Below, in pieces: positions 2,443 through 24,389 of a stretch of DNA of 64,000 nucleotides. The notes beneath the pieces were generated by a model, which was not told the origin of the DNA, did not search any database, and was given only the letters and a program-made list of their open reading frames with translations. Made by a program: the position numbers and the translations under genes. Each line of letters opens with the position of its first letter. The first letter of the stretch is position 1. The DNA comes from Paraglaciecola psychrophila 170 (GTDB lineage Bacteria; Pseudomonadota; Gammaproteobacteria; Enterobacterales; Alteromonadaceae), in assembly GCF_000347635.1 (NCBI RefSeq), contig NC_020514.1:4898001-4962000 (forward strand), written 5' to 3'.

Positions 2443-2550
2443 GTTCTCTCCCGAGATATTAGCGATTTTAGTAATCTATTTTGAAGCGAGTATTTTCGCC
2501 TCTTCGATTTATATATTATTATGAAAATCGACTAAGTTACTTTACAACAC

Positions 2551-2566
2551 TTGACCAGTTGGTCAA
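2551..2566. promoter_or_regulatory. RutR-like operator upstream of the secreted nuclease
   Basis: TTGACCAGTTGGTCAA has two perfect 7-bp arms (TTGACCA/TGGTCAA) around a 2-bp centre. This is exactly the published E. coli RutR consensus TTGACCAnnTGGTCAA. RutR is a TetR-family regulator of pyrimidine use that responds to uracil. The site lies 109 bp from the nuclease ATG. A variant occurs at 21541-21554. No rutR gene lies in this window, so the regulator is inferred. Confidence 0.6.
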
Positions 2567-2593
2567 TGATTAAGAAAAAAGTCATGTTTTTTT

Positions 2594-2654
2594 GAATGGT
2601 TTTTTCGTATCAACAAGGCTTAGTATTGACTTCAATTACCAACAAAAACCATTC
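2594..2654. repeat. Inverted repeat, 11-bp arms
   Basis: GAATGGTTTTT at 2594-2604 is exactly complementary to AAAAACCATTC at 2644-2654, with a 39-nt spacer. It sits just upstream of the RutR-like site relative to the nuclease gene. It could be a second operator pair or a cruciform; no function is assigned. Confidence 0.5.
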
Positions 2655-2859
2655 TAAAAGATAGCTTAAACCTATCTATATCAGTGTTTCATACACATTT
2701 AACCTACTACTGAATAACCAACAACACACTATTCATATTTTATATATGATTTTTACCTTAGCGAACAGCGTTCTAAAATTAACGATGCAAGATAGTCATT
2801 AAAGTATAAAGTTGTGAGTGAGCAACGTGTCATCAGTTGTGTTTAATTTTCCTGTTCTG

Positions 2860-2888
2860 CATATTTCATACTCCAATAGTGAAATATG
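2860..2888. repeat. Inverted repeat upstream of mgtE
   Basis: CATATTTCA (2860-2868) and TGAAATATG (2880-2888) form a perfect 9-bp stem around an 11-nt loop, 92 bp before mgtE. It may be a leader hairpin or an operator. No match to a known Mg2+-sensing RNA was recognised. Confidence 0.45.
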
Positions 2889-2891
2889 TGC

Positions 2892-2908
2892 TGACCAACT
2901 AGTGGTCA
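2892..2908. promoter_or_regulatory. Palindrome with RutR-type arms but longer spacing, upstream of mgtE
   Basis: TGACCAACTAGTGGTCA has TGACCA/TGGTCA arms like the site at 2551 but a 5-bp rather than 2-bp centre. A TetR-type dimer fixed on the shorter spacing would not be expected to bind well. An imperfect direct copy of its right half (AACTAGTG then CTCAT) follows at 2917-2930. It lies 72 bp upstream of mgtE. Confidence 0.35.
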
Positions 2909-2980
2909 TGGATTAAACTAGTGACTCATAATCAAGCACTACCTCCTTTTATTGTTCCAGCGAGTAAGTTTATCTAAGCC

Positions 2981-4336
2981 ATGCCAAATACCTTCGAAGC
3001 CAAGAGCAGTCACAACCAACTTCATGACATCAATGAAGCCTTAGGTAGCGGTCAAACAGAGCTCGCCAAAGAGATGTTGCACCAGTTGCAACCCGGTGAT
3101 CTTGCTTTGCTTTTAGAATCAAGCCGCAGTCGCAATCGTTTAGATATTTGGCAACTTATCCAGCCTGATCTATACAGTGACGTGCTCGAAGAACTATCTG
3201 ATGATGTACGTAATGGCATTATCAGAAAAATGCTACCAGAAAAAGTTGCCGATGCCCTAGAAGAGATGGACACCGATAACTTAGTCGATACTTTACGTGG
3301 TTTGCCTCAGGAAGTAGCTCAAAATTTATTGGCTGCCATGGATGAACAAGACCGTTCCAGAGCCGAGCTGGGGTTATCTTATGGTGAAGAAACCGCTGGT
3401 TTTATCATGAATACCGATGCTATTACACTTCGCCCTGGCATTAATGTAGATGTGATCCTGCGATATTTACGCCTCAAAGGTGATATGCCCGAGCACACAG
3501 ATACATTATATGTAGTAGATCGCGACTATAGATTAATGGGTGGCGTGGCACTCACTCGGCTCATAACTGCAGCTGCTGCTACACCAATAGAGTCTTTAAT
3601 GAAAACTTCTGAAGCCATTCCTGCCAGTATGATGGATAACGAAGTAGCCAGTTTATTTGAGCGTTACAACTGGTTATCTGCCCCTGTAGTAGATGAAAAT
3701 AATCAATTGTTAGGGCGTATCACTATTGATGATGTGGTTGACATAATTCGTGAAGACGCAGAACACTCAATGATGAGTATGGCCGGTTTGGACGATGAAG
3801 AAGATACCTTCGCACCCGTTATCAAGAGTACTCAGCGCCGCTCAATTTGGTTAGGTGTGAATCTGCTGACTGCCTTAATGGCAGCTGCGGTAAGTGACTT
3901 ATTTGAAGCCGCTTTAAGCCAACTGGCCGTGTTGGCAATCCTCAACACTATTGTTCCCAGTATGGGCGGGGTAGCGGGAAATCAAACCCTTACCCTAGTT
4001 ATACGCGGAATGGCTTTGGGCCACGTAAACTCAGCTAATGCCAGATGGTTGATTAGCAAAGAATTAGCGATTGGTTTCTTAAATGGCGTGATATGGTCGG
4101 TGTTGATCGCATCGGTCATTGCCATTTGGAAACAAGACTTAATGTTAGGCGCAGTGATCGCCTTTGCGATGCTTATCAATATGATTGCTGCTGGATTAGC
4201 AGGGGCGAGTTTGCCCATTATCATGAAAAAATTGAAAATAGATCCTGCTTTAGCAGGCAGTGTAATTTTAACCACTATCACTGATGTAGTCGGTATATTT
4301 GCATTTTTAGGCTCTGCTACTTGGCTGTTGATATAG
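2981..4336 (+). CDS. mgtE: MgtE magnesium transporter
   Basis: This 451-residue protein has the standard MgtE order. A cytoplasmic superhelical N domain (about residues 25-130, with repeated LPxEVAxxLLxxM-like helices) is followed by two CBS domains (about 135-260). The CBS part includes GRITIDDVVDIIREDAEH, the conserved linker into the membrane. A C-terminal five-helix channel (about 285-450) carries NTIVPSMGGVAGNQTLTLV, the family's signature pore region. MgtE is a Mg2+-gated, Mg2+-selective inner-membrane channel whose cytoplasmic domains close the pore when internal Mg2+ is high. The length is normal. The start ATG at 2981 gives a typical N-terminus. The next gene overlaps its end. Confidence 0.95.
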   Translation: MPNTFEAKSSHNQLHDINEALGSGQTELAKEMLHQLQPGDLALLLESSRSRNRLDIWQLIQPDLYSDVLEELSDDVRNGIIRKMLPEKVADALEEMDTDNLVDTLRGLPQEVAQNLLAAMDEQDRSRAELGLSYGEETAGFIMNTDAITLRPGINVDVILRYLRLKGDMPEHTDTLYVVDRDYRLMGGVALTRLITAAAATPIESLMKTSEAIPASMMDNEVASLFERYNWLSAPVVDENNQLLGRITIDDVVDIIREDAEHSMMSMAGLDDEEDTFAPVIKSTQRRSIWLGVNLLTALMAAAVSDLFEAALSQLAVLAILNTIVPSMGGVAGNQTLTLVIRGMALGHVNSANARWLISKELAIGFLNGVIWSVLIASVIAIWKQDLMLGAVIAFAMLINMIAAGLAGASLPIIMKKLKIDPALAGSVILTTITDVVGIFAFLGSATWLLI

Positions 4337-5211
4337 GTTTGAGCTTCCCTCGAACAATTATTTTAACACTTTTAGCTTTATTCGCTTTTGCTGCCAATTC
4401 TGTTTTATGTCGTCTTGCATTAAATACAGAGCAGGTTAACCCTGCAGATTTCACGTCTATTCGATTGCTTTGTGCGGCGCTTATTTTGGCCCTTATAATT
4501 ATGATCAAAGACAAATCGGTGATCAGTAAAATTAATCAATATGGTAGCCACAGCGGTGCTTTGTCTCTGTTTGTTTATGCCGCAGCTTTTTCTTATGCCT
4601 ATATCACTCTCAACACAGCAACTGGGGCGCTAATATTATTCGCAGCAGTGCAGTTTACTATGCTGTTCAAAGGATGGTTAACTGGTAATAAAATGGGCTT
4701 TCAAGAATATACGGGGGTTTTATTGTCTCTGTTGGGATTCATTTATTTTGTCTTTCCAGAGCTGGAGAATCCTAGTTTACTCGGATGCTTGCTGATGGTC
4801 TTAGCAGGCATAGCTTGGGGTATTTATAGCTTAATTGGCGCCCAATCGAGGTACCCACTTTATGATACAGCCAGTAACTTTATTCGATTAGTCCCCATTG
4901 CCATCATTGGTCTGATAGTGATGTATTTTAGTTTTGGCATCAATATCAGCTTAAAGGGGTTACTCTACACTTTTTGCTCAGGAGCACTCGCTTCAGGAGT
5001 AGGTTACACCATTTGGTATCAAGTCATGCCTAAGTTAAAACCTAGTATTGCAGCAGTATGTCAGCTATCAGTGCCAATTTGGGCTGCTTTAGGCGGGATA
5101 TTGTTAGTTGATGAACCTATTGATTTACATATTGCAGCGTCGGCATCAGTTATCCTAGGTGGGATATTGTTAGTGATACTGGCTAAGAAAAAGAGCTCAC
5201 CGCAAATATGA
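4321..5211 (+). CDS. EamA/DMT-family permease
   Basis: About ten hydrophobic helices in two homologous halves, with a LGGILLV-type end in the second half, mark a drug/metabolite (EamA) transporter of up to 296 residues. No ATG gives a full-length protein. The usable starts are TTG at 4321, inside the last codons of mgtE, or TTG at 4339, just after the mgtE stop. The second gives a more normal N-terminus. The overlap suggests translational coupling to mgtE. A short Lys-rich tail ends the protein. The substrate cannot be told from sequence; family members export amino acids or other small metabolites. A strong hairpin follows the gene. Confidence 0.8.
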   Translation: MAVDIGLSFPRTIILTLLALFAFAANSVLCRLALNTEQVNPADFTSIRLLCAALILALIIMIKDKSVISKINQYGSHSGALSLFVYAAAFSYAYITLNTATGALILFAAVQFTMLFKGWLTGNKMGFQEYTGVLLSLLGFIYFVFPELENPSLLGCLLMVLAGIAWGIYSLIGAQSRYPLYDTASNFIRLVPIAIIGLIVMYFSFGINISLKGLLYTFCSGALASGVGYTIWYQVMPKLKPSIAAVCQLSVPIWAALGGILLVDEPIDLHIAASASVILGGILLVILAKKKSSPQI

Positions 5212-5327
5212 AGCTAAATTATAGATAGAAATTCCAACACAAATGACAGTCCATCAACACCTTGATATCTTAACTGTTATTAAAATATCTTACGTTATAT
5301 TTGATATTAGGAATACACACCAAAACA

Positions 5328-5364
5328 TTGAAAATGCAACTAACTACATTAGTTGCATTTTCAA
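5328..5364. terminator. Bidirectional hairpin terminator between the DMT permease and galK
   Basis: A perfect 16-bp stem (TTGAAAATGCAACTAA, 5328-5343) with the 5-nt loop CTACA pairs to 5349-5364. It lies between convergent genes. The A/T-rich stem ends would serve either direction, although no long T tract follows. Confidence 0.7.
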
Positions 5365-5380
5365 CGTCCAATTTGTTTAA

Positions 5381-6568
5381 TTATATCTCCCCCGCTCCTT
5401 CACTGGCACTACAAATATAAATAGTCTCTTGATAACCAGTCTCTGCTTGATAACGCTTAGCCATCAACTGTTTTGCACCTTCCACCAAATCGTGAGGCAT
5501 AATAGCCACCATACAGCCACCAAAGCCTCCGCCTGTCATTCGAACGCCTCCCTTATCGCCTAAGTATTCAGTTAATATTTTTACGGCGAAATCAATTTGC
5601 GGTACTGTGATTTCAAAGTCGTCACGCATTGAGATGTGAGACGCAGCCATTAATCTGGACAGCTGCACCACATCATTTGTTTTCAGAGCTTGCGCAGCTA
5701 AAACAGTCCGTTCACTATCTGACACCACATGGTGGGCGCGTCGATAAACCACTTCAGGCAGTTTATCTTTATTGCTATGTAAGTCAGCCAAGCTGATATC
5801 ACGTAAAGCTTTTAACCCCAAAGTACCAGCGGCCTCTTCACACTGAAGGCGGCGGGTATTGTATTCACTATCGACTAAACCCCGTTTCACATTGGAGTTG
5901 ATGATCATCACCGCAAGGTTTTCTGGCATTGAAATCAGCTCTGCATCTAACGAACGACAATCTAATAACAAGGCGTTAAATTTAGAGCCACAAGCACTGA
6001 CCATTTGATCCATGATGCCGCACTGACACCCTACAAATTGATTTTCAGCTTCTTGACCGTTTAACGCCACTTCTGCTTTAGTTAGTAATAAATCATATAA
6101 ACCACGAAAGGTTTCACCAATTGCCACTTCCAAAGAAGCAGAGGAGCTTAACCCTGCACCTTGCGGCACATTACCGGTTATAGCCAAATTGGCACCTTTA
6201 AACACATGCCCTCTCATTTGCAGGTGTTTGATGACTCCGCGCACATAATTACTCCACAATTGTGAAGAGTGAGCTGAAATTTCATTTTCCAGCGAAAACT
6301 CATCTTGCTGGTTGTTGTAATCAACAGCCACAACTTTGACCGTCATATCATCTCTGGGTGTGACAGCGACTAAAGTTTGATAGTTAATCGCACATGGCAG
6401 CACAAAACCATCGTTGTAGTCCGTGTGCTCACCTATTAAATTGACCCTGCCCGGTGCTTGGAAATGACGAGTGGGCGCGGAACCAAATGTCTGGGTAAAA
6501 ACGGAGTCAAGTTCAGTTAACATGCTTTGACAGATATTTGACTCAGGTTTAGAAGTATTGAAAGTCAT
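5381..6568 (-). CDS. galK: Galactokinase
   Basis: This 395-residue GHMP kinase phosphorylates galactose to galactose-1-phosphate in the Leloir pathway. Motif 1 is [19 protein letters not shown] near residue 42. Motif 2 is [17 protein letters not shown] near residue 140, the ATP loop. Motif 3 is [13 protein letters not shown] near residue 350. A conserved GIMDQM segment lies between motifs 2 and 3. The ATG at 6566-6568 overlaps the galT stop as ATGA, so the two genes are translationally coupled. Because galT is frameshifted, galK expression by coupling may be weakened, and galactose-1-phosphate could accumulate if galK is still expressed. Confidence 0.96.
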
Positions 6569-7622
6569 AAACCTAAGGCTCCAGCCGATTCGTTGTAATG
6601 CACATCGCTGAGCGCCTGCAAACGCTGTGCAGCTTGCTCTGGAGTTAAATCTCGTTGTGGCTCTGCCATCATTTCATAACCTACCATAAATTTACGCACC
6701 GTAGCTGAACGTAATAACGGCGGATAAAAATGCGCATGCACCTGCCAATGCTCTGTCGACTCTAGATTATTTGGCGCACCGTGCCAGCCCATTGAGTAAG
6801 GAAAAGAACATTGAAACAAATTATCATAGCGACTAGTGAGTTTTTTAATAGCGATAGCCAAATCGGCTTTTTGTGCTGGGTTAACATCAGTTAATCTGGC
6901 ACAAGTAAACTTAGGTATAAGCAACGTTTCAAACGGCCAAGCCGCCCAGTAAGGCACAACTGCTATCCAATGTTCGGTTTCAACTACGGTACGCGAGCCA
7001 TCCGCCGATTCCTTTTCCGCATAATCTAACAACAGCGAACTAGCATGTTTATCAAAGTACGCTTTTGGCTAGCTTCGGCTTTCGCCACTTCATTAGGTAT
7101 GAAGTCATTTGCCCAGACTTGCCCGTGGGGATGAGGATTAGAGCAACCCATGGCTGCACCTTTGTTCTCAAATACTTGTACCCAAACATAATCTTTGGAT
7201 AAATCCGCTACTTGTTCTTGCCACGTATCAATCACCCCTTCTAAAGCGGGTAAAGATAATTCCGGTAAGGTTTTATTATGCTCGGGAGAAAAACAAATAA
7301 CTCGGCTGGTGCCTCTGGCTGCTTGCAAAGTAAACAGGTCATCATTCGACTGCTCAGACGCGGGAGTGTCTTGCATTAACGCGGCAAAATCATTGGTAAA
7401 TACGAATGTACCCGCATACTCAGGGTTAACTTCACCATTAATACGAGTGTTACCTGAACATAAGAAACACTTGGGGTCGTAAGCCGCAGTATCAGTTACC
7501 TGTGGTTTCTCTACTTGGCCTTGCCAAGGACGTTTCGCTCTATGGGGTGAAACTAACACCCAATCACCCGTTAACGGATTGCGACGACGGTGAGAGTGAT
7601 CGACTGGATCAAATGTAGACAT
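6565..7622 (-). pseudogene. galT: Galactose-1-phosphate uridylyltransferase, frameshifted
   Basis: Two overlapping frames together give a normal-length GalT of about 350 residues. The N-terminal part (7622 to about 7060) has the zinc-site CFLCSGN and the active-site [11 protein letters not shown]. The C-terminal part (about 7060 to 6565) has DGSRTVVETEHW, WPFETLLIPK and HAHFYPPLLRS. The break is at 7058-7063. On the coding strand AAGCGTACTTTGAT should read AAG-CGN-TAC-TTT-GAT, so one base is missing and the first frame stops 12 codons later. There is no homopolymer at the break, so a simple run-length error is less likely. The enzyme would swap UMP between UDP-glucose and galactose-1-phosphate. 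The truncated product would lack the C-terminal half. Confidence 0.9.
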
Positions 7623-7645
7623 AACTTATATAACCTATTTGTGTT

Positions 7646-7663
7646 GCCGTTAACTTAAACGGC
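7646..7663. promoter_or_regulatory. Palindrome 24 bp upstream of galT
   Basis: GCCGTT and AACGGC arms surround AACTTA, just ahead of the galT start and behind the arcB stop. It could be an operator for galTK or a weak arcB terminator. There is no T tract, and it does not match the E. coli GalR operator closely. Confidence 0.3.
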
Positions 7664-7767
7664 GAGTGACCAATATGTTACATCTAAAACCCAGCTAACC
7701 AATAAAAATCTTATCATCTTTTTTAATAAATTAACTACTCTTTAAGTTACAGGCTTGCTAAGTCCCT

Positions 7768-10125
7768 TCAGTCATCAATGTCTTGCTGACCTAACCAGTT
7801 AATTAATTTTTGCATATCTTGGTTAGCGGCCTGATGCAATTGTTCTACCCAATCATGCACATTTTGCCACCAAGCAGGATGATCACCTTGTTGGATTTCA
7901 TTAGCAATTTTTTGCACTCTGTATAAGCCTACCGAGCTCGCAGCACCTTTTATTTTGTGTGCCTGGGAGCACACTTCATCTTTTTCATCGGCACTTAAAC
8001 TAAGTTGCAAAATTTCTAAATATTCGGGCATCTTTTCCTGAAACACCTTAACACTGGTACGTACCATTTCGTGGCCAATCGTATCTACCAACATTTGTAA
8101 CAAGTCCAAATCAAGAACAGTATTTAACGGGTCTATTTTAGGCTCTGGAGCAGGTTGATGAGGTACGCTAGGTTGTTCGCAGAACAGACTATTAAACACT
8201 TCAATAATACGACTTTTTTTGACTGGTTTCGAGATGACTTCATCCATACCGTTATCCAGATATTCTTGACGCGTTTTAATCACATTCGCGGTCAACGCCA
8301 CAATACTGGTTTGCTCTACCAAAGATTCTTCATGTAAAACATTTGCAACCTCAAAGCCATTCATATCAGGCAATTGAATATCCAGTAATACCAAATCATA
8401 TTGTTTGTTACGAGCCATATTAATGGCCTCATTGCCTGTCATAGCTACGTCAACATGTTGTCCAAGTTTTTCCAACAGCGCTTTGGCAACCATCACATTT
8501 AACTCAATGTCCTCTACCAACAATATCTGTAAGCCTGTGACTTTAAGGGTTTCAACTTGAATAGGTTTTTTGCTGATCCCAAGGGGCAAGTCAACGGTAA
8601 AACAGGTACCTTCACCTATTACACTGCTGACACTAATTTTACCATTCATCAAAGACACCATTTGTTGGCATATAGCAAGACCAATGCCTGTACCTGTGGC
8701 ACTTTGATGTTCGGGTGAGTCAACTTGATAATACATTGCGAAAATTTTATCTAAGTCTTGCTGGGGAATACCCACACCCGTATCACACACTTTGAATGTG
8801 ACCATGGATGTTTCAGCATCAACCTTCTCAGCTTTAACCTCTAAAGACACCGTTCCTCGTTGGGTAAACTTGACTGCGTTAAATAATAAATTCCACAAAA
8901 TTTGTCTTAAGCGGGTACCGTCAACCTCAACCAAAGCCGGTAAAGGCTCCTCTACATGCGCAGCAAAAGTGAGGTCTTTATCGTCAGCTAATAGCTCTAT
9001 AATACTGCTTAGCTCTTGAGTGAAATCTTTTATCGATACAGTTTTCAGTGATAATTCGAGCCTGTCTCTGTCTAAGCGGTCCAAATCAATGATGTCGTTA
9101 AATATATTACCTAGCGTAATGCCACTCGCGTAAATCGTACTGACCCAAGCAAACTGCTCGCTAGTCAGATCAGTATCACGCAACATTCTGCTTAGACCAA
9201 CAATGCCATTAAGGGGCGTTCGTAACTCATGGCTGATAGTGGCAATGAAGGCAGTTTTGTCTTTACTCGCTTTAGCTACCACATTCTCAGCTTGTTTACG
9301 CTCGGTGATATCACGCCCAAAAGCAAGAATACCGAGACGAGTATCGTCTGCGCTATAGAATGGCACCTTACGCATTTCATAAAAGCGGCGGCGGCCATCA
9401 GCAAATCGTAACCATAATTCTTCGGTAATACTGGTATTATTTTCGAGCACGTCTTGATCACTTGCAACCACCTGTCGGGCCAGTTCTTCGTCGTACACTT
9501 GATGTGGCGTTAAGCCAATCAACTCTTGTTCGGTTTTACCCGTCATCTCTTCAGCAACACGATTGCAGCCGGCAAATTGACCTTCTTGATTACGGTAATA
9601 AATCAAGTCTGGAGAGGCATCGATAATCGATCGCAGTAAAGTAGATAAGCGTAATGCTTGTTGCTCTTTTTCAGCTCTATCAGTGATTTCACGCTCGAGG
9701 TCAGAGAACACACTTTCTCGCTCTAACTGAGCATTTTTTCGCTGCTCAATTTCATGGTTGAGTTGCTTGATATTATTCTGAAGAGTGTGATTCAGTAACT
9801 CATCTTCTTTACGCAATCGCTCTAACTCAGTAACCGCGTCTGCAAGGCTCTCCCTGGAGCGCTCCAGTTGTTTAACTAACTCGCTAAAAACCCATAGTAC
9901 CCAAGGCGCACTGAGTAGAGTCAGTACAATGGCAATTAAGAAGTCTTCAGTGTGAGCTTGGTCACTGAGAAACATTCTAAGAAAATAGGTGCCAGAAAAA
10001 GTGAATATTAAAGTCAAAATAACGAATAAAACACTGGTCTTTACCGCGCCAAAACGGTTGATAAGCTGAGCAATACGGATAGCCCATGGGTCAACGGAGG
10101 TCTTTTTTGTCTTCTTATTCGTCAT
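7768..10125 (-). CDS. arcB: ArcB-type hybrid sensor histidine kinase
   Basis: At 785 residues it is close to E. coli ArcB (778) and has the same order. Two membrane helices (about 28-52 and 60-82) are followed by a coiled-coil linker (about 84-160) and a PAS domain (165-280). Then come HisKA with ISHELRTPLNG (His299), HATPase, a receiver with LVLLDIQLPDMNG (Asp near 583) and an Hpt domain with QAHKIKGAASS (His near 724). ArcB senses quinone redox state and phosphorylates ArcA under low oxygen. One redox cysteine is kept in the PAS domain (C187, matching E. coli C180). The second (E. coli C241) is replaced: DGRRRFYEMRK instead of DGRKACFEIRK. Proximity to gltBD matches the E. coli gene order. 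Confidence 0.92.
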   Translation of the reverse strand: MTNKKTKKTSVDPWAIRIAQLINRFGAVKTSVLFVILTLIFTFSGTYFLRMFLSDQAHTEDFLIAIVLTLLSAPWVLWVFSELVKQLERSRESLADAVTELERLRKEDELLNHTLQNNIKQLNHEIEQRKNAQLERESVFSDLEREITDRAEKEQQALRLSTLLRSIIDASPDLIYYRNQEGQFAGCNRVAEEMTGKTEQELIGLTPHQVYDEELARQVVASDQDVLENNTSITEELWLRFADGRRRFYEMRKVPFYSADDTRLGILAFGRDITERKQAENVVAKASKDKTAFIATISHELRTPLNGIVGLSRMLRDTDLTSEQFAWVSTIYASGITLGNIFNDIIDLDRLDRDRLELSLKTVSIKDFTQELSSIIELLADDKDLTFAAHVEEPLPALVEVDGTRLRQILWNLLFNAVKFTQRGTVSLEVKAEKVDAETSMVTFKVCDTGVGIPQQDLDKIFAMYYQVDSPEHQSATGTGIGLAICQQMVSLMNGKISVSSVIGEGTCFTVDLPLGISKKPIQVETLKVTGLQILLVEDIELNVMVAKALLEKLGQHVDVAMTGNEAINMARNKQYDLVLLDIQLPDMNGFEVANVLHEESLVEQTSIVALTANVIKTRQEYLDNGMDEVISKPVKKSRIIEVFNSLFCEQPSVPHQPAPEPKIDPLNTVLDLDLLQMLVDTIGHEMVRTSVKVFQEKMPEYLEILQLSLSADEKDEVCSQAHKIKGAASSVGLYRVQKIANEIQQGDHPAWWQNVHDWVEQLHQAANQDMQKLINWLGQQDIDD

Positions 10126-10338
10126 AACGAGTGGGTCTCAAACATCTGTGGTTCTTGCCAATTTTCGATATGCTAGCAAGAAAATTCCGAGGATCAAAAT
10201 ACTAGCCTAGCATTAAACTGTAAATCTAAAGCTTCCAAAGACTATTTATTCATTTTATTTATATATTAATTCAGTACGCAACAAGCTGCAAAAATAAAAA
10301 AACGTCTTTTTTAACGTTTTAATAACAACTAGCACTGT

Positions 10339-10365
10339 TTATAAGCTTTTATATATAGCTTATAA
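10339..10365. repeat. AT-rich inverted repeat in the gltB upstream region
   Basis: TTATAAGCT and AGCTTATAA form 9-bp perfect arms around TTTATATAT. It lies between arcB and gltB, over 300 bp from gltB. It could be a protein-binding site or a weak hairpin; no function is assigned. Confidence 0.4.
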
Positions 10366-10657
10366 CCAAGCCACAAAAATACCGCATACCATTGAATTAA
10401 AAGAACTTTCGACGCTTATTAGAGCCTTCATCCTGAAAAATATAAAATACACCATATAAGTGAATTGATTTATAAAATAATCCTCGGTATTTTGTACGAC
10501 CTGCTTAGTATAAATATTCGATACTCGACTGGTATCCTCAATAATAATTACGACCAGAAAATAAGCATCAGGGCATGAAGCCACTTCACGTTCATACACG
10601 TATTTAGATGTATGATTAGCAATAACAACATACAACACCCTGTCCAGTCTAAGGTTG

Positions 10658-10663
10658 AAGGAG
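10658..10663 (+). promoter_or_regulatory. Ribosome-binding site fixing the gltB start
   Basis: AAGGAG lies 9 nt before the ATG at 10673. It excludes the in-frame TTG at 10655, which lies upstream of this site. The ATG start leaves a 12-residue propeptide before the catalytic cysteine, as in other GltB proteins. Confidence 0.8.
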
Positions 10664-10672
10664 TCTACATTA

Positions 10673-15139: not shown

Positions 15140-16564
<1,425 letters not shown>

Positions 16565-16590
16565 GCGGTTAGATACATAAGGCAAATAGA

Positions 16591-16616
16591 AAAAAGGGGC
16601 TTGCGCCCCTTTTTTT
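16591..16616 (+). terminator. Rho-independent terminator of gltBD
   Basis: A stem GGGGC/GCCCC with loop TTGC is flanked by A5 before and T7 after, 27 bp past the gltD stop. It is a canonical intrinsic terminator. Confidence 0.9.
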
Positions 16617-16647
16617 ATCTTAGGCGAAAAAAGTAAAAATATTTTAA

Positions 16648-16739
16648 ACCACAGAGGACAAAGAGCACTTCGCTACACAGAGGAACAGACTTCAAAATTC
16701 ACTTTTCTTTTCCTCTGTGACCTCCTTATCCTCGGTGGT
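16648..16739. repeat. Palindromic REP/MITE-like element, copy 1
   Basis: The 92-bp unit starts ACCACAGAGGACA and ends TATCCTCGGTGGT, which are near-perfect inverted termini. Internal arms CACAGAGGA and TCCTCTGTG also pair. A second copy follows at 16773. It has no coding content. It resembles interspersed palindromic repeats found in many gammaproteobacteria. Confidence 0.7.
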
Positions 16740-16740
16740 G

Positions 16741-16763
16741 AGCAATCTTTTATTTCGTAATGG
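16741..16763 (-). repeat. Duplicated 3' tip of the EEP nuclease gene
   Basis: These 23 bp match 16880-16902, which includes the last codons of the EEP gene, at 19 of 23 positions. On the minus strand they would read LTITK-stop, against DITVTK-stop in the gene. The offset is 139 bp, so the gene tip and one repeat copy form a diverged tandem duplication unit. Confidence 0.6.
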
Positions 16764-16772
16764 TCAGGATTT

Positions 16773-16879
16773 CACCACTGAGAACACAGAGCGCTGCGCT
16801 ACACAGAGAAAATATTTAGAATTTAAAAGACTCATCATATTTTTGTTTTTCCTCTGTAGCCTCATTGTCCTCGGTGGTG
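16773..16879. repeat. Palindromic REP/MITE-like element, copy 2
   Basis: The 107-bp unit has termini CACCACTGAG and CTCGGTGGTG (one mismatch when paired) and inner arms CACAGAG and CTCTGTAG. Same orientation as copy 1. It ends immediately next to the 3' end of the EEP gene. Confidence 0.7.
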
Positions 16880-16888
16880 AGCAAGCTT

Positions 16889-18055
16889 CTATTTTGTAAC
16901 GGTAATATCTACCCACACTAATCGATGATCCGACGAACTCTGTCGGTCTTTAATTAAACGAAACAAAGGATCATCTGGTTTAGGCCAAAATACGCCACTC
17001 CCCTTCACGTTAAGTGATGTTGAAGGTAATACATAATCAGCTCGCATTGCCCATTCCGCAGTATGTTGTGCTGAATAGGGATTAGCGGGCGTATGAACGC
17101 TGCCAGCTTCACTTTGTGGCACAATTGAATCATTAACTAGCGAATGCTCAAGTAGCCCTTTTATGCCGCTCTTGATGCCATCACCTTCAACTGGTGAGGC
17201 ATTTAAATCACCGGCAATAACAAAGTGTTCGCCTTTAAAACCACCTCGTTTTTGATTGTCATCGTAAATATAAGCCGATAGTTCACTGCCAGATAAGTAA
17301 TCAGTCCAAAAACGTATCTCATCGTGATTACGTTTACCATTACGATTTTCTGGACCATCAAATACAGGGGGTGTGGGATGACTGGCCAGTAAATGAATGC
17401 GGCGATCACCCACTTTAATGGGAATATCCCAGTGGGACTTAGACGACAATCGCAATATTTGCTGCGCATCTTGGTTGTAATATGGCACCCCGTTTACGTC
17501 CTTGATAGTTGCCATTAAATTATCTGGCATATCTTTCCACAGGAAATGTTGAAACGTACGGATTTGGTCAAATTGAATCGGATATTTACTCAGTACCAAC
17601 ATACCATAGTGGCCTGGGAAAAAGCCGAAGCCAAAGGCATCGCCTTTCGTGCCAGATGCTATTCCGTCTTTATCTAGATCTAAGCCAGAATCAACACCTG
17701 TATTGACAGGAGCACTATAGAAATAAGGGTAATCAATAGGCTTAATATTATTCTGAGATACGTTTAGATAATGCTTTATAAAATTCTGAGCGTCTGTTGC
17801 TGACTGGTTTGAATAATCAAACTCATTTAAAAGAACAATGTCAGGTCTTATTCTCTGAATAATTTCTGCAATGTTTTTAATTTGTGTATGTTTACCATCG
17901 TGTAAGTTGCTCTGCAACGCATCACCTGTAGTCGTCTGGCCTTTTGCAACATAATTGGTGGCATCCATACTGACATTAAACGTGGCAATTCGAATACTTT
18001 GGCTATTTGAAGACATACTGAATACCATTAAGAAGATAAAAAATAATTTAAACAT
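16889..18055 (-). CDS. Secreted endonuclease/exonuclease/phosphatase-family protein
   Basis: This 388-residue protein has a signal peptide (MFKLFFIFLMVFSMSSNSQ) and an EEP domain with IRIATFNVSMD, DIVLLNEFDYS, LLASHPTPP, VIAGDLNASPVEGDG and SSDHRLVWVD. These include the conserved metal-binding Asn/Glu, the catalytic His and the C-terminal SDH. EEP proteins cleave phosphodiester or phosphoester bonds, and the secreted DNase-I-like branch acts on nucleic acids, though phytase- or sphingomyelinase-like roles cannot be excluded. It lies downstream of the TonB receptor on the same strand, but a terminator separates them. A periplasmic or extracellular site of action is expected. Confidence 0.88.
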   Translation of the reverse strand: MFKLFFIFLMVFSMSSNSQSIRIATFNVSMDATNYVAKGQTTTGDALQSNLHDGKHTQIKNIAEIIQRIRPDIVLLNEFDYSNQSATDAQNFIKHYLNVSQNNIKPIDYPYFYSAPVNTGVDSGLDLDKDGIASGTKGDAFGFGFFPGHYGMLVLSKYPIQFDQIRTFQHFLWKDMPDNLMATIKDVNGVPYYNQDAQQILRLSSKSHWDIPIKVGDRRIHLLASHPTPPVFDGPENRNGKRNHDEIRFWTDYLSGSELSAYIYDDNQKRGGFKGEHFVIAGDLNASPVEGDGIKSGIKGLLEHSLVNDSIVPQSEAGSVHTPANPYSAQHTAEWAMRADYVLPSTSLNVKGSGVFWPKPDDPLFRLIKDRQSSSDHRLVWVDITVTK

Positions 18056-18081
18056 TATTTAACCGTTTTTGAATTACAAAT

Positions 18082-18112
18082 AAAAAAGCCGACCCAGAGG
18101 AGTCGGCTTTTT
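18082..18112 (-). terminator. Intrinsic terminator after the TonB-dependent receptor
   Basis: AAAAAGCCGAC and GTCGGCTTTTT form a strong A/T-flanked stem-loop between the receptor stop and the EEP gene start. The T tract on the minus strand fits termination of the receptor transcript. Confidence 0.85.
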
Positions 18113-18130
18113 AGATTCTAAATTAAATAT

Positions 18131-21100
18131 TTAGAACTTATAGTTAACACCTATGCGAACTGACCACAACGATGCATCACCAACTCGAGTCTGACCAGCA
18201 GGATCTAAAAATGCTTCATATTCATACTGACCAAGCTCATTAATTGAAGCTTGTATTGCAGGCTGTGCACGAGGGAAGCTTGTTTCATACAAAACACCCC
18301 AGTCATCGTTCAGCATGTTACCAAAGTTCTCAACCACGATAAACGCTTCACCTTTATGCTCCTTCATGAAACCAGGAAATTCCTGAGAAACACGAAGATC
18401 CACTTTGGTCCACCAATCGCCATTAATGCTGTTACGCTCCATGATTCCACCACGCTTCAGACCTTCTGAATCGATGAATGCGTTAAATGCTTCTACATCG
18501 AAATCGTCGCCATAAACAACGTTACTATCGTTAAGATCAGGAACGTATAATAAATGACGGTCGACGAAACCAACTGAGTCACCAAACGCGAAACCTGTAT
18601 CCTCGCCAAATGTATAACTATACGGGCGGCCTTCGTTAACTGTAGCGAACATATTGAAACGTGTTCTGTAGCCATCAAAAAACTCATTCGTATAAGCTAA
18701 GCTAAACGTAAAACGTTGAGGGATCTCGTAGTTAGACGCAGCTAAACCTGGATTCTCAGGGTCAGAGGTGTTGTTCAAATAGTTAGAAAACGCAACAGAG
18801 CTTGTCATTGGGCTGACTTCATCAGTTGAAACGTTTGCGTATGAAGCACTCCAGTCAATGCCGTTATCAAGAGACTGGCTTAAACCAACTGAAAAAGTTG
18901 TTGAATCGCCTGAATCGCCGTTAACATTTGTCAAAACAAAATCTTGACTACGTCCATTCACACTTGTGTAAATCGGGCGTCCGTCAGGGGCAGTATTACC
19001 ACTCAAACCACGACTGAAATCACTAATAATTGCTGAGTTTTTCTTATCTGAGTAAAGAAGGTCAAGCATCACCAACAAATCATTTTCGAATGTATAAGTT
19101 GCACCTAGAGCGAACTTCCACTCAGAAGGAATTTCGAAGTCAGGGTCTTGAATATTCAGACCACCGTTACGACCTTCACCATTTGCAACGGCATCAAAAA
19201 GATCTTGTGGAATATCGAGAATTGGATTGCCTCCACCATTGAAGGCCATTTCAAATACTGAAGTACCAGATCTGTCTTGGTTCTCAAGCTGAATAACACC
19301 GTTGTTTGAATAGTTATTAGAAAGCCATACATTTGGGTTACCGCCGGAGTACAAACCAACACCACCACGCACTTCCAATTGTTCACTAGCGTTCCAGTTT
19401 ATGCCTAAACGGGGTTGTAACAAATCAAGACCGTCTAAATTTTGTTGGTTACTGAATCCATATGTGGCTTCAACTAATGGGTTTTCTGGAGGAAGATCAT
19501 CACTGCTATACCAATCATAACGCAAACCGTAAGTGACGGTGACGTCTTCATCTAACCAGTAATACTCGTCCTGAACATAAAGAGTATTGATTTCGTAAGC
19601 AAAGGTAGCCGCCGCATCTGACGGATTGTTAGTCACTCCCGCATTCTCATATGTAATACGATTAGGCGTTCCAGCTTCGAAGTCATCAATCGAACTAAAG
19701 CGATACTCGCCTTCAGCCTCTTGGATAAACAAGTTAAACACATCAAGCTTCTCGTACTCATATCCAGCAGTAATCACGTGGTCACCAACCGTATAGGTAC
19801 CGGCTAGTTTTATCGTGTCTGTGTCGTAAGTTAATTTATTCGCGTGACGTGAGTCATCTGCACCTAAATAAACTGTAGCACGAGAATTGGAACCATCACC
19901 GTCATGGTCAAACTCGGTACGTATCTGCACTTCACCAAAATCAGTGCCACCAAGAGGCGTAACTGACGCTTCGAAATCTGATGTACCTATCCTTAATTCG
20001 GTAGAAAAATTATCTGTCCAGTCGGAGTAAACAGAAGCGACATAAGAAGTAAATTCACCGCGTTGGTCGTAGTAATGGTCAGAAAACTCAAACTCGTTTG
20101 AATCACCATCTGATTCGCGGATGATGTTCCCATCGTTGAAGTTATACACAAATGATGCACGATGCGCATCATTAATTTGCCAATCTAATTTAAGAAGAAC
20201 TTTTTCATCTTCTACTGGGATACTGGACACAAGACCGCCAGGGGTATAGCCGTAGCTATCTATGGCTATTTGTTGAATACGGTCAAGCTGAGCTTGTGAG
20301 ACACCTTGAACAGGTGTTGCTGCATTTGAGTCACCTGCACCTCGGTCAAACAAGGTGGCACCTTCTAGCTTTTCGTAAGCACCATAAAAAAACAGTTTGT
20401 CTTCTATTAATGCTCCACCAAAGTTAACACCGTAACGCTTCTCAGTAAAGTCGCCGGTATTAAGCTTATCGCCTTCTAATTCATCACCACGAAGAGAGTC
20501 ACTAGTATAGTCAAAGAAAGAACCGCCGTGCCATTCGTTGCTACCAGACTTAGTTACAGCGTTAATATTGCATGCAGTGAAACCACCATACTGAACATCA
20601 AATGGTGCTAATTCAACAGCTACCTGAGCAATGGCATCGTAAGAAAATGGAATACGAACCGTTGGGTAACCATTTTGATTAAGACCAAAGTTATCATTCA
20701 TCCGCACACCGTCAAGCGTCAAGCTGTTGAAACGTGAGCTTGCACCAGCACACTGAATACTGTCTTCGTTAGCCTCATTAATATAAATACGCGGGTCAAT
20801 TTTAATAAGGTCTTTAATATCACGGTTGATAGCTGGCGCAGTTTCTAAATCATTTAAACCAAAGTTTGCAACAGGACCTGACGAACCATACGATGAGTTA
20901 ACTATTGAACTAGTAACAGCGATGCGCTCGATATTTTCTTGGCTTTTCAGATCGATGTTTTGGTTTAAGGTCTCGCCCAATGTTAGATACACATCAGTCA
21001 TTGTGCTGGTTCCAGCAGTATCCTGCACTGCGATTGTGTAAGGACCACCTACACGCAAACCTCGCAAGTTATAACGGCCAGTTTCATTAGTAGAAATAAC

Positions 21101-21283
21101 TTTAACAGAACCGGTGCGGGAGTCAGTAATGGTAACTGTTGCTCCTGCCACTGACTGCCCATTTGCAGATAATACTGTACCATTAATAGCTGAAGAAGTT
21201 TCTTGCGCCATTGCCGCAGTTGACATGCCAACTGCCATAGCGACTGCAATCGCGATGCGATTGAGTTGTGTTTTTTTTAACAT
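18131..21283 (-). CDS. Oar-like TonB-dependent receptor
   Basis: Starting at the ATG at 21283 (preceded by AGGAAA) the protein is 1050 residues with a clear signal peptide (MLKKTQLNRIAIAVAMAVG then MSTAAMA). A longer in-frame start at 21397 would bury this signal and is rejected. After the signal comes a carboxypeptidase-regulatory-like (Ig-like) domain, about residues 28-110, with NGTVLSANGQSVAGATVTI. The plug follows (about 150-250, with SRFNSLTLDGVRMNDNFG). The rest is a long beta-barrel ending in SVRIGVNYKF, the terminal aromatic typical of outer-membrane proteins. Such receptors import large or scarce substrates using TonB energy. Divergence from udk and a CNT transporter across a RutR-like site suggests nucleosides, nucleotides or oligonucleotides (inference). 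Confidence 0.92.
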   Translation of the reverse strand: MLKKTQLNRIAIAVAMAVGMSTAAMAQETSSAINGTVLSANGQSVAGATVTITDSRTGSVKVISTNETGRYNLRGLRVGGPYTIAVQDTAGTSTMTDVYLTLGETLNQNIDLKSQENIERIAVTSSIVNSSYGSSGPVANFGLNDLETAPAINRDIKDLIKIDPRIYINEANEDSIQCAGASSRFNSLTLDGVRMNDNFGLNQNGYPTVRIPFSYDAIAQVAVELAPFDVQYGGFTACNINAVTKSGSNEWHGGSFFDYTSDSLRGDELEGDKLNTGDFTEKRYGVNFGGALIEDKLFFYGAYEKLEGATLFDRGAGDSNAATPVQGVSQAQLDRIQQIAIDSYGYTPGGLVSSIPVEDEKVLLKLDWQINDAHRASFVYNFNDGNIIRESDGDSNEFEFSDHYYDQRGEFTSYVASVYSDWTDNFSTELRIGTSDFEASVTPLGGTDFGEVQIRTEFDHDGDGSNSRATVYLGADDSRHANKLTYDTDTIKLAGTYTVGDHVITAGYEYEKLDVFNLFIQEAEGEYRFSSIDDFEAGTPNRITYENAGVTNNPSDAAATFAYEINTLYVQDEYYWLDEDVTVTYGLRYDWYSSDDLPPENPLVEATYGFSNQQNLDGLDLLQPRLGINWNASEQLEVRGGVGLYSGGNPNVWLSNNYSNNGVIQLENQDRSGTSVFEMAFNGGGNPILDIPQDLFDAVANGEGRNGGLNIQDPDFEIPSEWKFALGATYTFENDLLVMLDLLYSDKKNSAIISDFSRGLSGNTAPDGRPIYTSVNGRSQDFVLTNVNGDSGDSTTFSVGLSQSLDNGIDWSASYANVSTDEVSPMTSSVAFSNYLNNTSDPENPGLAASNYEIPQRFTFSLAYTNEFFDGYRTRFNMFATVNEGRPYSYTFGEDTGFAFGDSVGFVDRHLLYVPDLNDSNVVYGDDFDVEAFNAFIDSEGLKRGGIMERNSINGDWWTKVDLRVSQEFPGFMKEHKGEAFIVVENFGNMLNDDWGVLYETSFPRAQPAIQASINELGQYEYEAFLDPAGQTRVGDASLWSVRIGVNYKF

Positions 21284-21540
21284 TATGTGTTTCCTAAGTT
21301 TTATCTGTTCTGAACATTTGGCCAGAACTGTTGTCTGTGTAGAATGCCATGAGACAATGCCAATGGCTTGGTTGATCGATTCAAATCGATTTCTCATTCC
21401 GTTAAACGCAAGTTTAACAGATTAATTATGACACTTTTATTACAGCCGTAACAGTGTTGGTGTAAATTCATCAAACTGTCTCATTTCTCTGACCAAATCA
21501 TACAAGTTAGCAACATATCTTAACAAAAATCTTACAAACC

Positions 21541-21554
21541 TGACCAGTAGGTCA
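21541..21554. promoter_or_regulatory. RutR-like operator in the receptor/udk divergent region
   Basis: TGACCAGTAGGTCA has 5-bp perfect arms TGACC/GGTCA with a 4-bp centre. It differs from the core of the 2551-2566 site at one position (AGTA for AGTT). The half-site spacing equals that of the E. coli RutR consensus. It is 87 bp before udk and about 258 bp from the receptor start, so it could control either or both. Confidence 0.5.
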
Positions 21555-21572
21555 AGTGTAAAAATCTACATT

Positions 21573-21597
21573 GTGAACTGACTTTTAGCAAGTTCAC
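21573..21597. repeat. Inverted repeat in the udk leader
   Basis: GTGAACT and AGTTCAC (7-bp perfect arms, 11-nt loop) lie 45 bp before the udk ATG, just downstream of the RutR-like site. It could be a leader hairpin or a second operator. Confidence 0.35.
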
Positions 21598-21641
21598 TGG
21601 TATCTTTCGTACTAATTTACTTCTTTAAGAAACGGTTTGGT

Positions 21642-22265
21642 ATGTCTACCCCTTTAGTTATTGCCATTTCAGGCGCATCTGGTTCTGGTAAGTCTTTGTT
21701 TACTGAGAATTTATTGAAAGAGTTCTCAGAAGAAGGCAAAACTGTTCAAATTTTACGAGAAGATCATTATTATCGTTCCCAAGACCATTTACCCATGGCA
21801 GAACGAGAAAAAAATAATTATGACCACCCAAAAGCATTCGAACATGAATTATTAGTTGAACATTTAGAAGCATTAATAAACTGGAAAGCGATCGAGTATC
21901 CTCATTATTGCTACAAGACTCATACTCGTCTCGAGCAAACAGAACACTTGATTTCAGCACCCGTTATTATCGTCGAAGGCATTATGTTGTTAGCAAACGA
22001 GGCCTTGCAGCCTTTATTTGATATTAAAATATTTGTCGATACGCCCTTGGATATTTGCTTATTACGCAGAATGAAAAGAGATATTGCCGAAAGAGGTCGT
22101 ACGTTAGAGTCTGTGGCCAAGCAATACGAATCAACCGTTAAACCTATGTATCACCAATTCATTTCACCCAGTCGCTTTACTGCTGATGTGATTGTCACTC
22201 AAGGCGGTAAGAACCGGATTGCACTCGATGTGATTAAATCTCATATTCAGCAAAGCCTGCTTTAA
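21642..22265 (+). CDS. udk: Uridine kinase
   Basis: This 207-residue P-loop kinase has Walker A GASGSGKSLF at residues 10-19. The uridine-binding region has EDHYYR and NYDHPKAFEHELL. FVDTPLDICLLRRMKRDI follows, with ERGR in the lid. It phosphorylates uridine and cytidine to UMP and CMP in pyrimidine salvage. The length and motifs are normal. It is the first gene of a three-gene run with a CNT transporter 47 bp later and an oxygenase after that. The upstream RutR-like palindrome suggests induction by pyrimidines (inference). Confidence 0.94.
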   Translation: MSTPLVIAISGASGSGKSLFTENLLKEFSEEGKTVQILREDHYYRSQDHLPMAEREKNNYDHPKAFEHELLVEHLEALINWKAIEYPHYCYKTHTRLEQTEHLISAPVIIVEGIMLLANEALQPLFDIKIFVDTPLDICLLRRMKRDIAERGRTLESVAKQYESTVKPMYHQFISPSRFTADVIVTQGGKNRIALDVIKSHIQQSLL

Positions 22266-22312
22266 AACAGCAGAGTGATGTGGATTACTAATAAAAATAT
22301 AAAGGAAATCAT

Positions 22313-23521
22313 ATGGTTAGTCTAATAGGCGTTGCACTTATGCTGCTCATCGCCTTTGCATTGTCGTCTCACAGAAAATCGATCAACTGGCGCACCGTGG
22401 GGGGAGCATTTGCTATCCAGGCCTCTGTTGGCGCATTGGTGCTGTATTTCCCTCCTGGTAAACAGTTTCTGTTGTCGTTAACAAGTTACGTAGAAAATAT
22501 TATTAGCTATAGCCAAGATGGTATTACCTTTATTTTTGGCCCGTTAGGTAATAAATCGATGGGTTTTATCTTCGCTTTTAATGTGTTGCCGGTGATTATA
22601 TTTTTCTCTTCGCTGATTACAGTTTTATATCACTTAAAAATTATGAATGTCATTATCCGAGTTATTGGCGGATTTTTACAATATTTCCTTAAAACCAGTC
22701 GTCCAGAGTCTATGTCCGCCGCAGCCAATATTTTTGTCGGTCAAACCGAAGCGCCATTAGTTATTAAACCTTATATACCCAATTTAACCCGGTCTGAACT
22801 TTTTGCCGTTATGGTAGGTGGTTTAGCCTCCATCGCAGGCTCAGTTATGGCTGGTTATGCGAGTATGGGTGTTGAAATAGAATATTTACTGGCGGCGAGC
22901 TTTATGGCGGCACCGGGTGGTTTATTAATGGCCAAAATTATTATTCCTGAAACAGAACAAGTCAAAAATGAACTGACTGAGAAGGAAGAACAAGACAATG
23001 AATACGCTAATATTTTTGATGCCGCGGCCAGTGGCGCAGCCAATGGTTTACATCTGGCATTAAACGTTGGCGCAATGTTATTAGCCTTCATTGGTTTGAT
23101 CGCATTATTAAATGGACTGATTGGCTGGGGTGGCGGTTTCTTTGGTGCCGAAGATATCAGTTTTCAGGTGATATTAGGTTATGTCTTTCAACCAATTGCT
23201 TGGACATTAGGTGTGCCATGGGAAGAAGCTAATATAGCGGGCAGCTTTATTGGCCAAAAAATGGTGGTGAACGAGTTTGTTGCTTATCTTGATTTCCTCA
23301 AGCACCAAGATCAACTTTCCCCGATTACTCAAGCTATCGTAATTTTTTCTTTGTGTGGATTTGCAAACTTTTCATCTATCGCCATATTAATGGGTGGAAT
23401 AGGTGCAATGGCACCAACTAGACGTAAAGAAATTGCCCAGTTGGGTTTAAAAACAGTATTCGCAGCAACTTTAGCCAATTTAATGAGTGCCGCCTTAGCA
23501 GGTTTCTACCTCAGCCTTTGA
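22313..23521 (+). CDS. Concentrative nucleoside transporter (CNT/NupC family)
   Basis: This 402-residue protein has three N-terminal helices and a core with the CNT signatures. [15 protein letters not shown] and the [19 protein letters not shown] stretch form the first re-entrant/helix motif. [12 protein letters not shown] and [19 protein letters not shown] form the second. It is an inner-membrane symporter driven by H+ or Na+ that imports nucleosides. A ribosome-binding site (AAAGGAAATC) precedes the ATG. It sits between udk and the oxygenase with short gaps (47 and 22 bp), so the three are probably one operon: import, phosphorylation and an oxidation step. Confidence 0.94.
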
Positions 23522-23543
23522 CAGAGAAACAAGTAGAGAGAAA

Positions 23544-24389
23544 ATGATTATGGAATTAGTAGCAGTAGATTATAAAGCACCCGATGCAGACAAACTTTTT
23601 GTAGAGTCCTTGCACAAAACCGGCTTTGGTGTATTGAAAAACCACCCTATTAGTCAGGACAGAGTCAGCAGTATTTATAAGCGCTGGCAGGCTTTTTTTA
23701 ACAGTGAAGAAAAGAATCAATTTACGTTTGATAAAGATACTCACGATGGATTTTTTTCAACTGAAATATCTGAAACCGCAAAGGGCTTTAAGAAAAAAGA
23801 TATTAAAGAATATTTTCATTTTTACCCATGGGGGCGTTGCCCAGAAGCATTAAAGCAAGAAGTAGCAGATTATTATCGAGATACTAATGCATTAGCTTCA
23901 GAGTTACTCACATGGGTTGAGAAATACTCACCACCAGAAGTGTCAGCTAAGTTCACACAATCGCTCTCGAGCATGGTGACTAATAGTGAACAAACCCTGT
24001 TACGTATTCTGCATTATCCGCCATTAGACGGCTCTGAGGAGCCAGATGCAATCCGTGCCGCGGCTCATGAAGACATTAACTTGCTCACATTATTACCTTC
24101 AGCCAATGAACCTGGTTTGCAGGTAAAAGGTACCGGTGATTCATGGATTGATGTACCTTGCGATTTTGGTAACTTAATCGTAAATATTGGCGATATGCTG
24201 CAAGAGGCATCTGGCGGGTACTTCCCATCTACGACCCACAGAGTGGTTAACCCTCAAGGCAGCGATCAAACTAAAGCGCGGGTTTCTTTGCCATTATTTT
24301 TGCACCCGAATCCAGAAGTAGTTTTGTCTGAAAGATACACGGCCAGAAGTTACTTGAAAGAGCGCCTTGAAGAGTTAGGTGTCGCTTAA
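23544..24389 (+). CDS. 2-oxoglutarate/Fe(II)-dependent oxygenase of the isopenicillin N synthase-like family
   Basis: This 281-residue protein (a second ATG lies two codons in) has the IPNS-like layout. The N-terminal DIOX_N-like part has GFGVLKNHPI. The jelly-roll core has the iron triad H175-x-D177 (AAHEDINLLTLLP) and H232 (STTHRVVNP). The 2OG-binding R246-x-S248 is in KARVSLPLFLHP. Family members oxidise small molecules, and thymine-7-hydroxylase of fungi belongs to the same fold. The substrate is not known. Co-operonic position after udk and a nucleoside transporter points to a pyrimidine base or nucleoside (inference). Confidence 0.85.
   Translation: MIMELVAVDYKAPDADKLFVESLHKTGFGVLKNHPISQDRVSSIYKRWQAFFNSEEKNQFTFDKDTHDGFFSTEISETAKGFKKKDIKEYFHFYPWGRCPEALKQEVADYYRDTNALASELLTWVEKYSPPEVSAKFTQSLSSMVTNSEQTLLRILHYPPLDGSEEPDAIRAAAHEDINLLTLLPSANEPGLQVKGTGDSWIDVPCDFGNLIVNIGDMLQEASGGYFPSTTHRVVNPQGSDQTKARVSLPLFLHPNPEVVLSERYTARSYLKERLEELGVA

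Follow-up and report, generated by a model that had tools for sequence, protein, structure and literature searches.

A predicted nucleic-acid scavenging regulon of a purine-locus RutR paralogue in Paraglaciecola psychrophila 170

RutR of Escherichia coli is a uracil-sensing TetR repressor that binds a palindromic consensus of about 16 base pairs (bp) and has the rut operon and carAB in its regulon (PMC10891134). RegPrecise lists RutR regulons, which like ours were obtained by comparative genomics in Proteobacteria, for 68 genomes of 13 taxa with 273 sites, under pyrimidine catabolism (PMC5343134). Here we analyzed a stretch of 64,000 nucleotides from the chromosome of Paraglaciecola psychrophila 170 (NC_020514.1, positions 4,898,001 to 4,962,000; hereafter the window). 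It carries two RutR-type palindromes, one upstream of exeM, which encodes an extracellular nuclease, and one between oar, which encodes an Oar-like outer-membrane protein, and udk, which encodes uridine kinase. It is probable, judging from the sequence comparisons below, that a RutR paralogue, RutR2, represses a nucleic-acid scavenging regulon through these predicted operators and is released by a nucleobase. This is the best explanation of the computed sites, their conservation, their co-occurrence with RutR2 or its relative RutR-D, the synteny and the ligand-contact residues.

RutR2 shares with E. coli RutR the TetR_C_3 family, the type of 16-bp palindrome and the uracil contacts. It differs in that it is a paralogue linked to purine catabolism and in that its predicted targets include secreted nucleases and an outer-membrane protein. 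The HypR regulon of Alteromonadales is similar in another way, as it is a catabolic regulon that extends to hydrolases secreted from the cell, namely collagenases, and to a putative transporter of the TonB-dependent type; however, HypR is a GntR regulator, and the regulon deals with proline and hydroxyproline and a protein polymer rather than nucleic acid (PMC5343134). ExeM of Shewanella belongs to the same ExeM/NucH nuclease family as the window protein (PMC6085458), whose gene has a predicted RutR-type operator. Oar of Myxococcus xanthus is of the same type by domains and is involved in protease secretion (PMC6434023), whereas the context here is nucleic-acid degradation and uptake. RutR, ExeM, Oar and the concentrative nucleoside transporter (CNT) encoded beside udk are all known families, and HypR is a precedent for the extension of a regulon. 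Some of the predicted targets may already be in the RutR lists of RegPrecise. Among the listed titles and beginnings of abstracts of open-licence PMC papers, we found none that connects nuclease or Oar genes with a regulator of the RutR family.

The preliminary description of this DNA, made from its letters alone, had reported both palindromes, and both are present. It had compared them with TTGACCANNTGGTCAA, the consensus of E. coli RutR. The exeM palindrome (TTGACCAGTTGGTCAA) matches this consensus without mismatch and is the sole perfect match in the chromosome of 5,413,691 bases, where about 0.02 would be expected by chance (5.4 Mb / 4^14). The palindrome between oar and udk (CTGACCAGTAGGTCAA) differs from it at 2 of 14 positions. 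The pattern TGACCAGTWGGTCA has exactly two matches in the genome, and these lie inside the window, but this count is not independent evidence because the pattern was drawn from those two sites. In the window alone, 8 matches with at most 3 mismatches were found against 3.7 expected, a number equalled in 5 of 100 shuffles. Such loose matches are near chance; therefore, the question is settled by comparative evidence. Matches with 2 mismatches across the genome were not used because the pattern read backwards gave the identical total (56 and 56). The exeM palindrome overlaps the −35-like hexamer of a sigma70-like pair on the minus strand (TTGACC-N16-TAAAGT, 2566-2539), in a region with 6 promoter-like pairs against 2.6 expected in shuffles. 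This overlap fits repression and is not proof of it. No promoter-like pair overlaps the site between oar and udk.

Both sites are conserved in orthologous promoters. We searched for udk in 60 genomes including that of the window; 47 had a match, and the best 30 loci of these were examined. Upstream of udk in 21 genomes of the genus, a site of at least 11/14 was found in 16 and of at least 10/14 in 19, and none was found in G009 and G018. Upstream of exeM, a site of at least 11/14 was present in 13 of 17 promoters of the genus (our own gene and 16 of 20 fetched starts). Two contig-end cases and both exeM copies of G035, which is of another genus, were left out of this set; the G035 copies carry sites scoring 12. 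The pattern scan added exeM sites in two further genomes, G003 and G016. All 630 letter permutations of the half-site were then scored in the same palindromic frame, and TTGACCA ranked first of 630 in both promoter sets. At udk, it gave the 16 of 21 promoters at 11/14 or more, against 4 for the runner-up by mean score and a permutation mean of 0.23; at exeM, the permutation mean was 0.30. The udk site lies near −100 in one group of genomes and at −178 in another. Since the word is kept while its place and flanks vary, selection on the site itself is argued. A third palindrome, TGACCA-ACTAG-TGGTCA at 2892-2908 upstream of mgtE, has the same half-sites and was excluded from the operator count because its spacer is 5 bp.

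The genome has 18 TetR_N matches, two of which carry the RutR-type C-terminal domain PF08362 (TetR_C_3), so that RutR-like regulators are present. The preliminary description had named unconserved sites and the lack of such a regulator as findings that would speak against it, and neither of these two sequence checks refuted it. RutR1 passes the NCBI RutR model NF011584 (288.7 bits, cut-off 230) and fails TIGR03613 (319.7 vs 368). Its neighbors are rutA, rutB and rutD, all above NCBI cut-offs, a rutE-type reductase gene and a rutF-like gene just under the cut-off (219.5 vs 254.75). RutR2 has PF08362 (164.1 bits, cut-off 25) and PF00440 (45.5 bits, cut-off 24) domains and is under both curated RutR cut-offs (TIGR03613, 189 vs 368; NF011584, 157.4 vs 230). 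Its gene adjoins xdhA, xdhB, xdhC, an OHCU decarboxylase gene, puuE and guaD, all above cut-off, and a puuD-like gene labelled by eye (no NCBIfam match at 1e-30). We classed RutR2 as a RutR paralogue, not as RutR, because it is linked to purine genes and not to the rut operon. A quick tree, built from 67 proteins out of 109 collected and with support by SH-aLRT only, places rut-linked RutR1 and alphaproteobacterial RutR apart from the RutR2 group, which also contains the type found at DNA loci (RutR-D) and a further type from purine loci. Of 23 rutR2 loci, 20 have a site scoring 10 or more in the gap that precedes the gene, and the other three lack a divergent xdhA. In G002, G004 and G013, an extra RutR2-like paralogue adjoins purine-permease-like and TonB-receptor-like genes.

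RutR2 keeps the uracil-contact residues of RutR. E. coli RutR contacts uracil through W77, W167, Q171, Q179' and, through water, Y97 (PMC10891134). All five residues occur in each of the 28 sequences of the RutR2 group, among them RutR2 itself. W77, W167, Q171 and Q179 are invariant across 65 proteins of nine groups, Y97 is replaced by F (5) or I (1) in the six RutR-D proteins, and positions 78, 81 and 84 near the contacts vary between groups. As the contacts are kept while their neighbors differ, the ring is probably still read in changed surroundings.

Co-occurrence points to RutR2 rather than RutR1 as the regulator of the window sites. We compared 33 genomes with a udk upstream region, absence of a regulator being no match at E 1e-10. 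A udk site (at least 11, within 300 bp) was found in 22 of 28 genomes with a RutR2 or RutR-D match and in none of the 5 without (Fisher p=0.002). RutR1, judged to be present by additional matches with about 39–43% identity, most of them outside the tree, had no effect: the site was found in 10 of 12 genomes with it and in 12 of 16 without it (p=0.67). RutR1 as the sole regulator was rejected on this ground. Consistently, G001, G006, G007, G008 and G015 have a single match to the RutR2 query, none to RutR1, and still perfect udk sites, and three intergenic stretches of our own rut region have no close match to the motif (best 8-10 of 14). It is therefore decidedly unlikely that RutR1 senses uracil and binds the window sites while RutR2 is limited to purine genes, even though RutR1 passes the NCBI model, E. 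coli RutR recognizes the same length of palindrome, and the putative sites of RutR1 itself (TGGACTGAATGGTCTG-like) have similar core bases. An arrangement in which both paralogues share operators and give a dual pyrimidine-purine input where both exist is also unlikely. Lysines K52 and K62, DNA contacts in E. coli RutR, occur in both paralogues, the operator cores are alike, and a coordinating role in the metabolism of both pyrimidines and purines has been described for E. coli RutR (PMC10891134); however, the flanks differ (TTGAC/CTGAC vs TGGAC/TAGAC at RutR1 sites), and site retention does not track RutR1. That the palindromes are chance occurrences, or operators of an unrelated regulator, is very improbable: degenerate palindromes are indeed near chance frequency in a single genome, but TTGACCA ranks first in two separate promoters, the sites are conserved though repositioned, and they were not found in the genomes without the regulator.

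Several observations weigh against regulation by RutR2 or soften the numbers above. G009 has RutR2 yet lacks sites at both udk and oar, and G018 lacks one at udk. Because the putative RutR1 operators share the core, RutR1 may cross-bind, and TTGACCA motifs adjoin RutR-family genes in other bacteria. At exeM, the permuted half-site TGACATC is nearly as good (12/17 vs 13/17), and one of the 13 sites, that of G019, is at −7 from a start that is itself uncertain. The counts come from kindred genomes of one genus and are not independent events. In scans of three genomes, the degenerate site totals were 42 against 30 for the reversed control, and in G003 the control exceeded the real pattern (12 vs 10). 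Raw site counts alone were thus rejected as evidence, degenerate patterns being hardly above the reversed control. In the scan described next, gene labels were given after the sites were seen, and one control place lies upstream of dusB-fis-purH, its immediate neighbor being dusB. Simple purine induction also fits poorly with predicted operators at the biosynthesis genes purH and purL. G009 still has rutR2, and its oar and udk are present with the two inserted genes; its sites were naturally lost, which makes it a useful comparison.

A scan of our own genome with WGACYANNTRGTCW, a strict pattern outside which the oar//udk site falls, suggests which other promoters belong to the regulon. It found 14 places, of which nine are beside nucleotide or nucleic-acid genes or an Oar paralogue: a pfkB-nucleoside hydrolase operon, a second oar, 8-oxoguanine deaminase//rhodanese, add//a xanthine-permease-like gene, rutR2//xdhA, a NYN-domain gene, purL, exeM and purH. 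The NYN and purH families were tested in the G003 copies, and our own copies were recognized by a like N-terminus or by neighbors. The reversed pattern gave 11 places, 0 or 1 of them beside such genes (p=0.001 or 0.012). Ten of the 14 places were outside open frames of at least 100 amino acids, compared with 2 of 11 for the control (3 with a boundary case; p=0.015 or 0.047). Places at nucleotide or nucleic-acid genes made up 8 of 18 in G012 and 7 of 10 in G003, and 24 of 42 in the three genomes together. The motif thus also marks purine-catabolism, nucleoside-hydrolase and rutR2 promoters as predicted targets. Sites upstream of purH are at 5293714 in our own genome and at 1501-1514 of locus L390 in G003, and the purL site is at 3625642 in our own genome. 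The NYN-domain gene, which encodes a putative RNase, has a site upstream in three genomes of the genus (our own, G003 and G014). In two genomes, TTGACCAAATAGTCAA is found some 190 bp upstream of a gene whose N-terminus suggests pyrG (CTP synthase). A gene for an EndA-type endonuclease I with a carbohydrate-binding domain was found in 6 of 22 genus genomes (E 1e-40). Its promoter has a site of at least 11/14 in five of these six; the copy in the window genome is without one.

Synteny links oar to nuclease and nucleoside genes. The two neighbors oar and udk share a contig in 20 of the 21 genomes of the genus and are on two contigs in G004, and the gene for an EEP-family nuclease or phosphatase adjoins oar in 19 of 21 loci. 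In eight genomes, two genes stand between oar and udk, one of them phosphonate-type periplasmic binding protein-like (tested in G012). In seven of these eight, oar has its own site at −124/−125 in addition to the udk site at −178; G009 has neither. Of four extra oar paralogues, three carry a site scoring 11 or better within 400 bp. The Paraglaciecola locus has no regulator gene inside, but such genes are found in related loci. A Colwellia metagenome-assembled genome (MAG) has deoA, cdd, oar, a RutR-like gene, the EEP nuclease gene and an alkaline phosphatase gene in a single run. In the stretches read, G022, G027, G032 and G033, members of the family, have this set together with tdk, deoC, CNT and udk genes, with upp in three and deoB in three (tdk and deoC were family-tested in G032 only). 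G028 has oar, the RutR-like regulator, nuclease and phosphatase genes together. Sites of at least 12 were found in the regulator//oar gap of G028, G032 and G033 and not in that of G022 and G027; in G022, G027 and G033, they were found before or at the start of cdd-deoA and before udk. No such site was seen in the regulator//oar gap of the Colwellia MAG. In a Cellvibrionales MAG, CNT-deoB-deoD-upp and a deaminase gene adjoin a RutR-like gene. Because a RutR-type gene is inside these loci, the link to Oar, secreted nuclease and nucleoside uptake is visible without the motif.

The role of Oar can be read in two ways. From predicted co-regulation and its gene neighborhood, Oar would belong to nucleic-acid use, and import of fragments is the simpler reading. 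The preliminary description had proposed a receptor dedicated to nucleosides or oligonucleotides; this is unsupported as written, since it is based on synteny and Oar of Myxococcus serves protein secretion. With a nuclease gene beside oar and the secretion role in Myxococcus, export is a serious rival. In Myxococcus, secretion of the protease PopC requires Oar, which depends on energy from TonB (PMC6434023). The EEP nuclease gene adjoins oar in most genus loci, and in Colwellia and five relatives the two genes are accompanied by a RutR-type gene. However, the uptake and salvage genes nearby fit an importer equally, Oar was labelled from its domain make-up and is a putative orthologue of Myxococcus Oar, and none of four Oar paralogues has an EEP-type nuclease gene within 1.5 kb flanks. 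That Oar is a TonB-driven channel that secretes the nuclease encoded downstream is therefore doubtful, and it would be compatible with regulation by RutR2.

Binding, repression, the effector and the cargo of Oar we infer as follows. RutR2 would bind TTGACCA-NN-TGGTCAA-like palindromes, both window sites being operators, and on the exeM palindrome it would cover the −35-like hexamer and block transcription. When nucleic-acid bases accumulate in the cell, a base with a uracil-like face would fill the pocket, and RutR2 would be released. ExeM and the EEP nuclease would then be made and exported, and Oar would be made. CNT would import nucleosides, Udk would phosphorylate uridine and cytidine, and the remaining nucleosides and bases would be degraded by nucleoside hydrolase and purine-catabolic enzymes. 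As effector, we would place xanthine first and uracil second; xanthine is favored because it shares the dioxopyrimidine edge of uracil and because the product of the adjacent xdh genes acts on it. The preliminary description had assumed one pyrimidine-responsive repressor. A RutR-family link of nuclease, Oar, nucleoside import and udk is most likely, but the regulator is probably the purine-locus paralogue, not the rut-operon RutR, and "pyrimidine-responsive" is unsupported as written because the core of the regulon is purine catabolism.

If RutR2 does act in this way, one repressor joins extracellular DNA breakdown, passage of the outer membrane and nucleobase catabolism. In the sea, dissolved DNA forms a nutrient pool, and the regulon would give a testable genetic handle on which organisms eat DNA, and when. 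Oar would be a candidate outer-membrane transporter for nucleic-acid pieces, and the RutR family would have split into pyrimidine, purine and DNA branches with a common operator. More tentatively, we propose that Alteromonadaceae and Colwellia have a nucleic-acid utilisation locus, a counterpart of the polysaccharide utilisation locus, with a dedicated RutR-clade repressor and an Oar specific for nucleic-acid fragments, and that in Paraglaciecola the purine-locus paralogue is in charge and a purine such as xanthine may signal DNA. Such a locus would comprise secreted nuclease and phosphatase, Oar, inner-membrane nucleoside uptake, and salvage or catabolism.

Table 1. Genes and predicted operators discussed in the text (window positions unless the chromosome is named)
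Feature	Position	Strand	Description
exeM	1..2442	-	ExeM/NucH-family extracellular endonuclease; 3' end outside window; NF033681, 639.5 bits
exeM operator	2551..2566	.	perfect TTGACCA-GT-TGGTCAA palindrome; predicted
EEP-family (PF03372) nuclease or phosphatase gene	16889..18055	-	signal-like N-terminus; 75 bp downstream of oar
oar	18131..21283	-	outer-membrane protein with carboxypeptidase-regulatory domain and OMP_b-brl_4
oar//udk operator	21540..21555	.	inside divergent promoter region; predicted
udk	21642..22265	+	uridine kinase (PRK/uridine kinase family), PF00485
CNT gene	22313..23521	+	CNT-family concentrative nucleoside transporter; PF07662, PF01773, PF07670
2OG-Fe(II) oxygenase gene	23544..24389	+	DIOX_N and 2OG-FeII_Oxy
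rutR2	chromosome 2884104-2884742		RutR-family TetR repressor

The gene families around the two operators (Table 1) agree with those of the preliminary description, namely an ExeM-type nuclease, an Oar-like protein, Udk, CNT and the 2OG-Fe(II) oxygenase; the second EEP-family protein had not been described. ExeM exceeds the NF033681 cut-off of 300 and does not reach that of the ExeM-GG exception model NF033680 (367.2 vs 1300), both scores being for the protein cut at the window edge. In the genome, its open frame has 843 amino acids. It is shorter than most orthologues of the genus (about 1230-1540 amino acids), several of which match its N-terminus twice. Oar has PF13620 (57.4 bits) and PF25183 (122.2 bits). 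The TonB plug domain PF07715 reached 26.4 bits (cut-off 23.9) in the Colwellia relative and was not reported for the window Oar at E 0.001, and a sequence search of solved structures with Oar gave no match at E 0.001. The oxygenase gene is probably the third gene of the udk operon; it adjoins the CNT gene also in two longer loci of the genus.

Two further features of the window were observed. Beside galK, galT (both named by eye) is split into two overlapping open frames on the minus strand (7026-7622 and 6565-7032), which is either a frameshift or a sequencing error. The gap between gltD and the EEP nuclease gene (16648-16899) contains two copies each of a 38-nucleotide and a 58-nucleotide element, 84% identical, which resemble a dispersed intergenic repeat.

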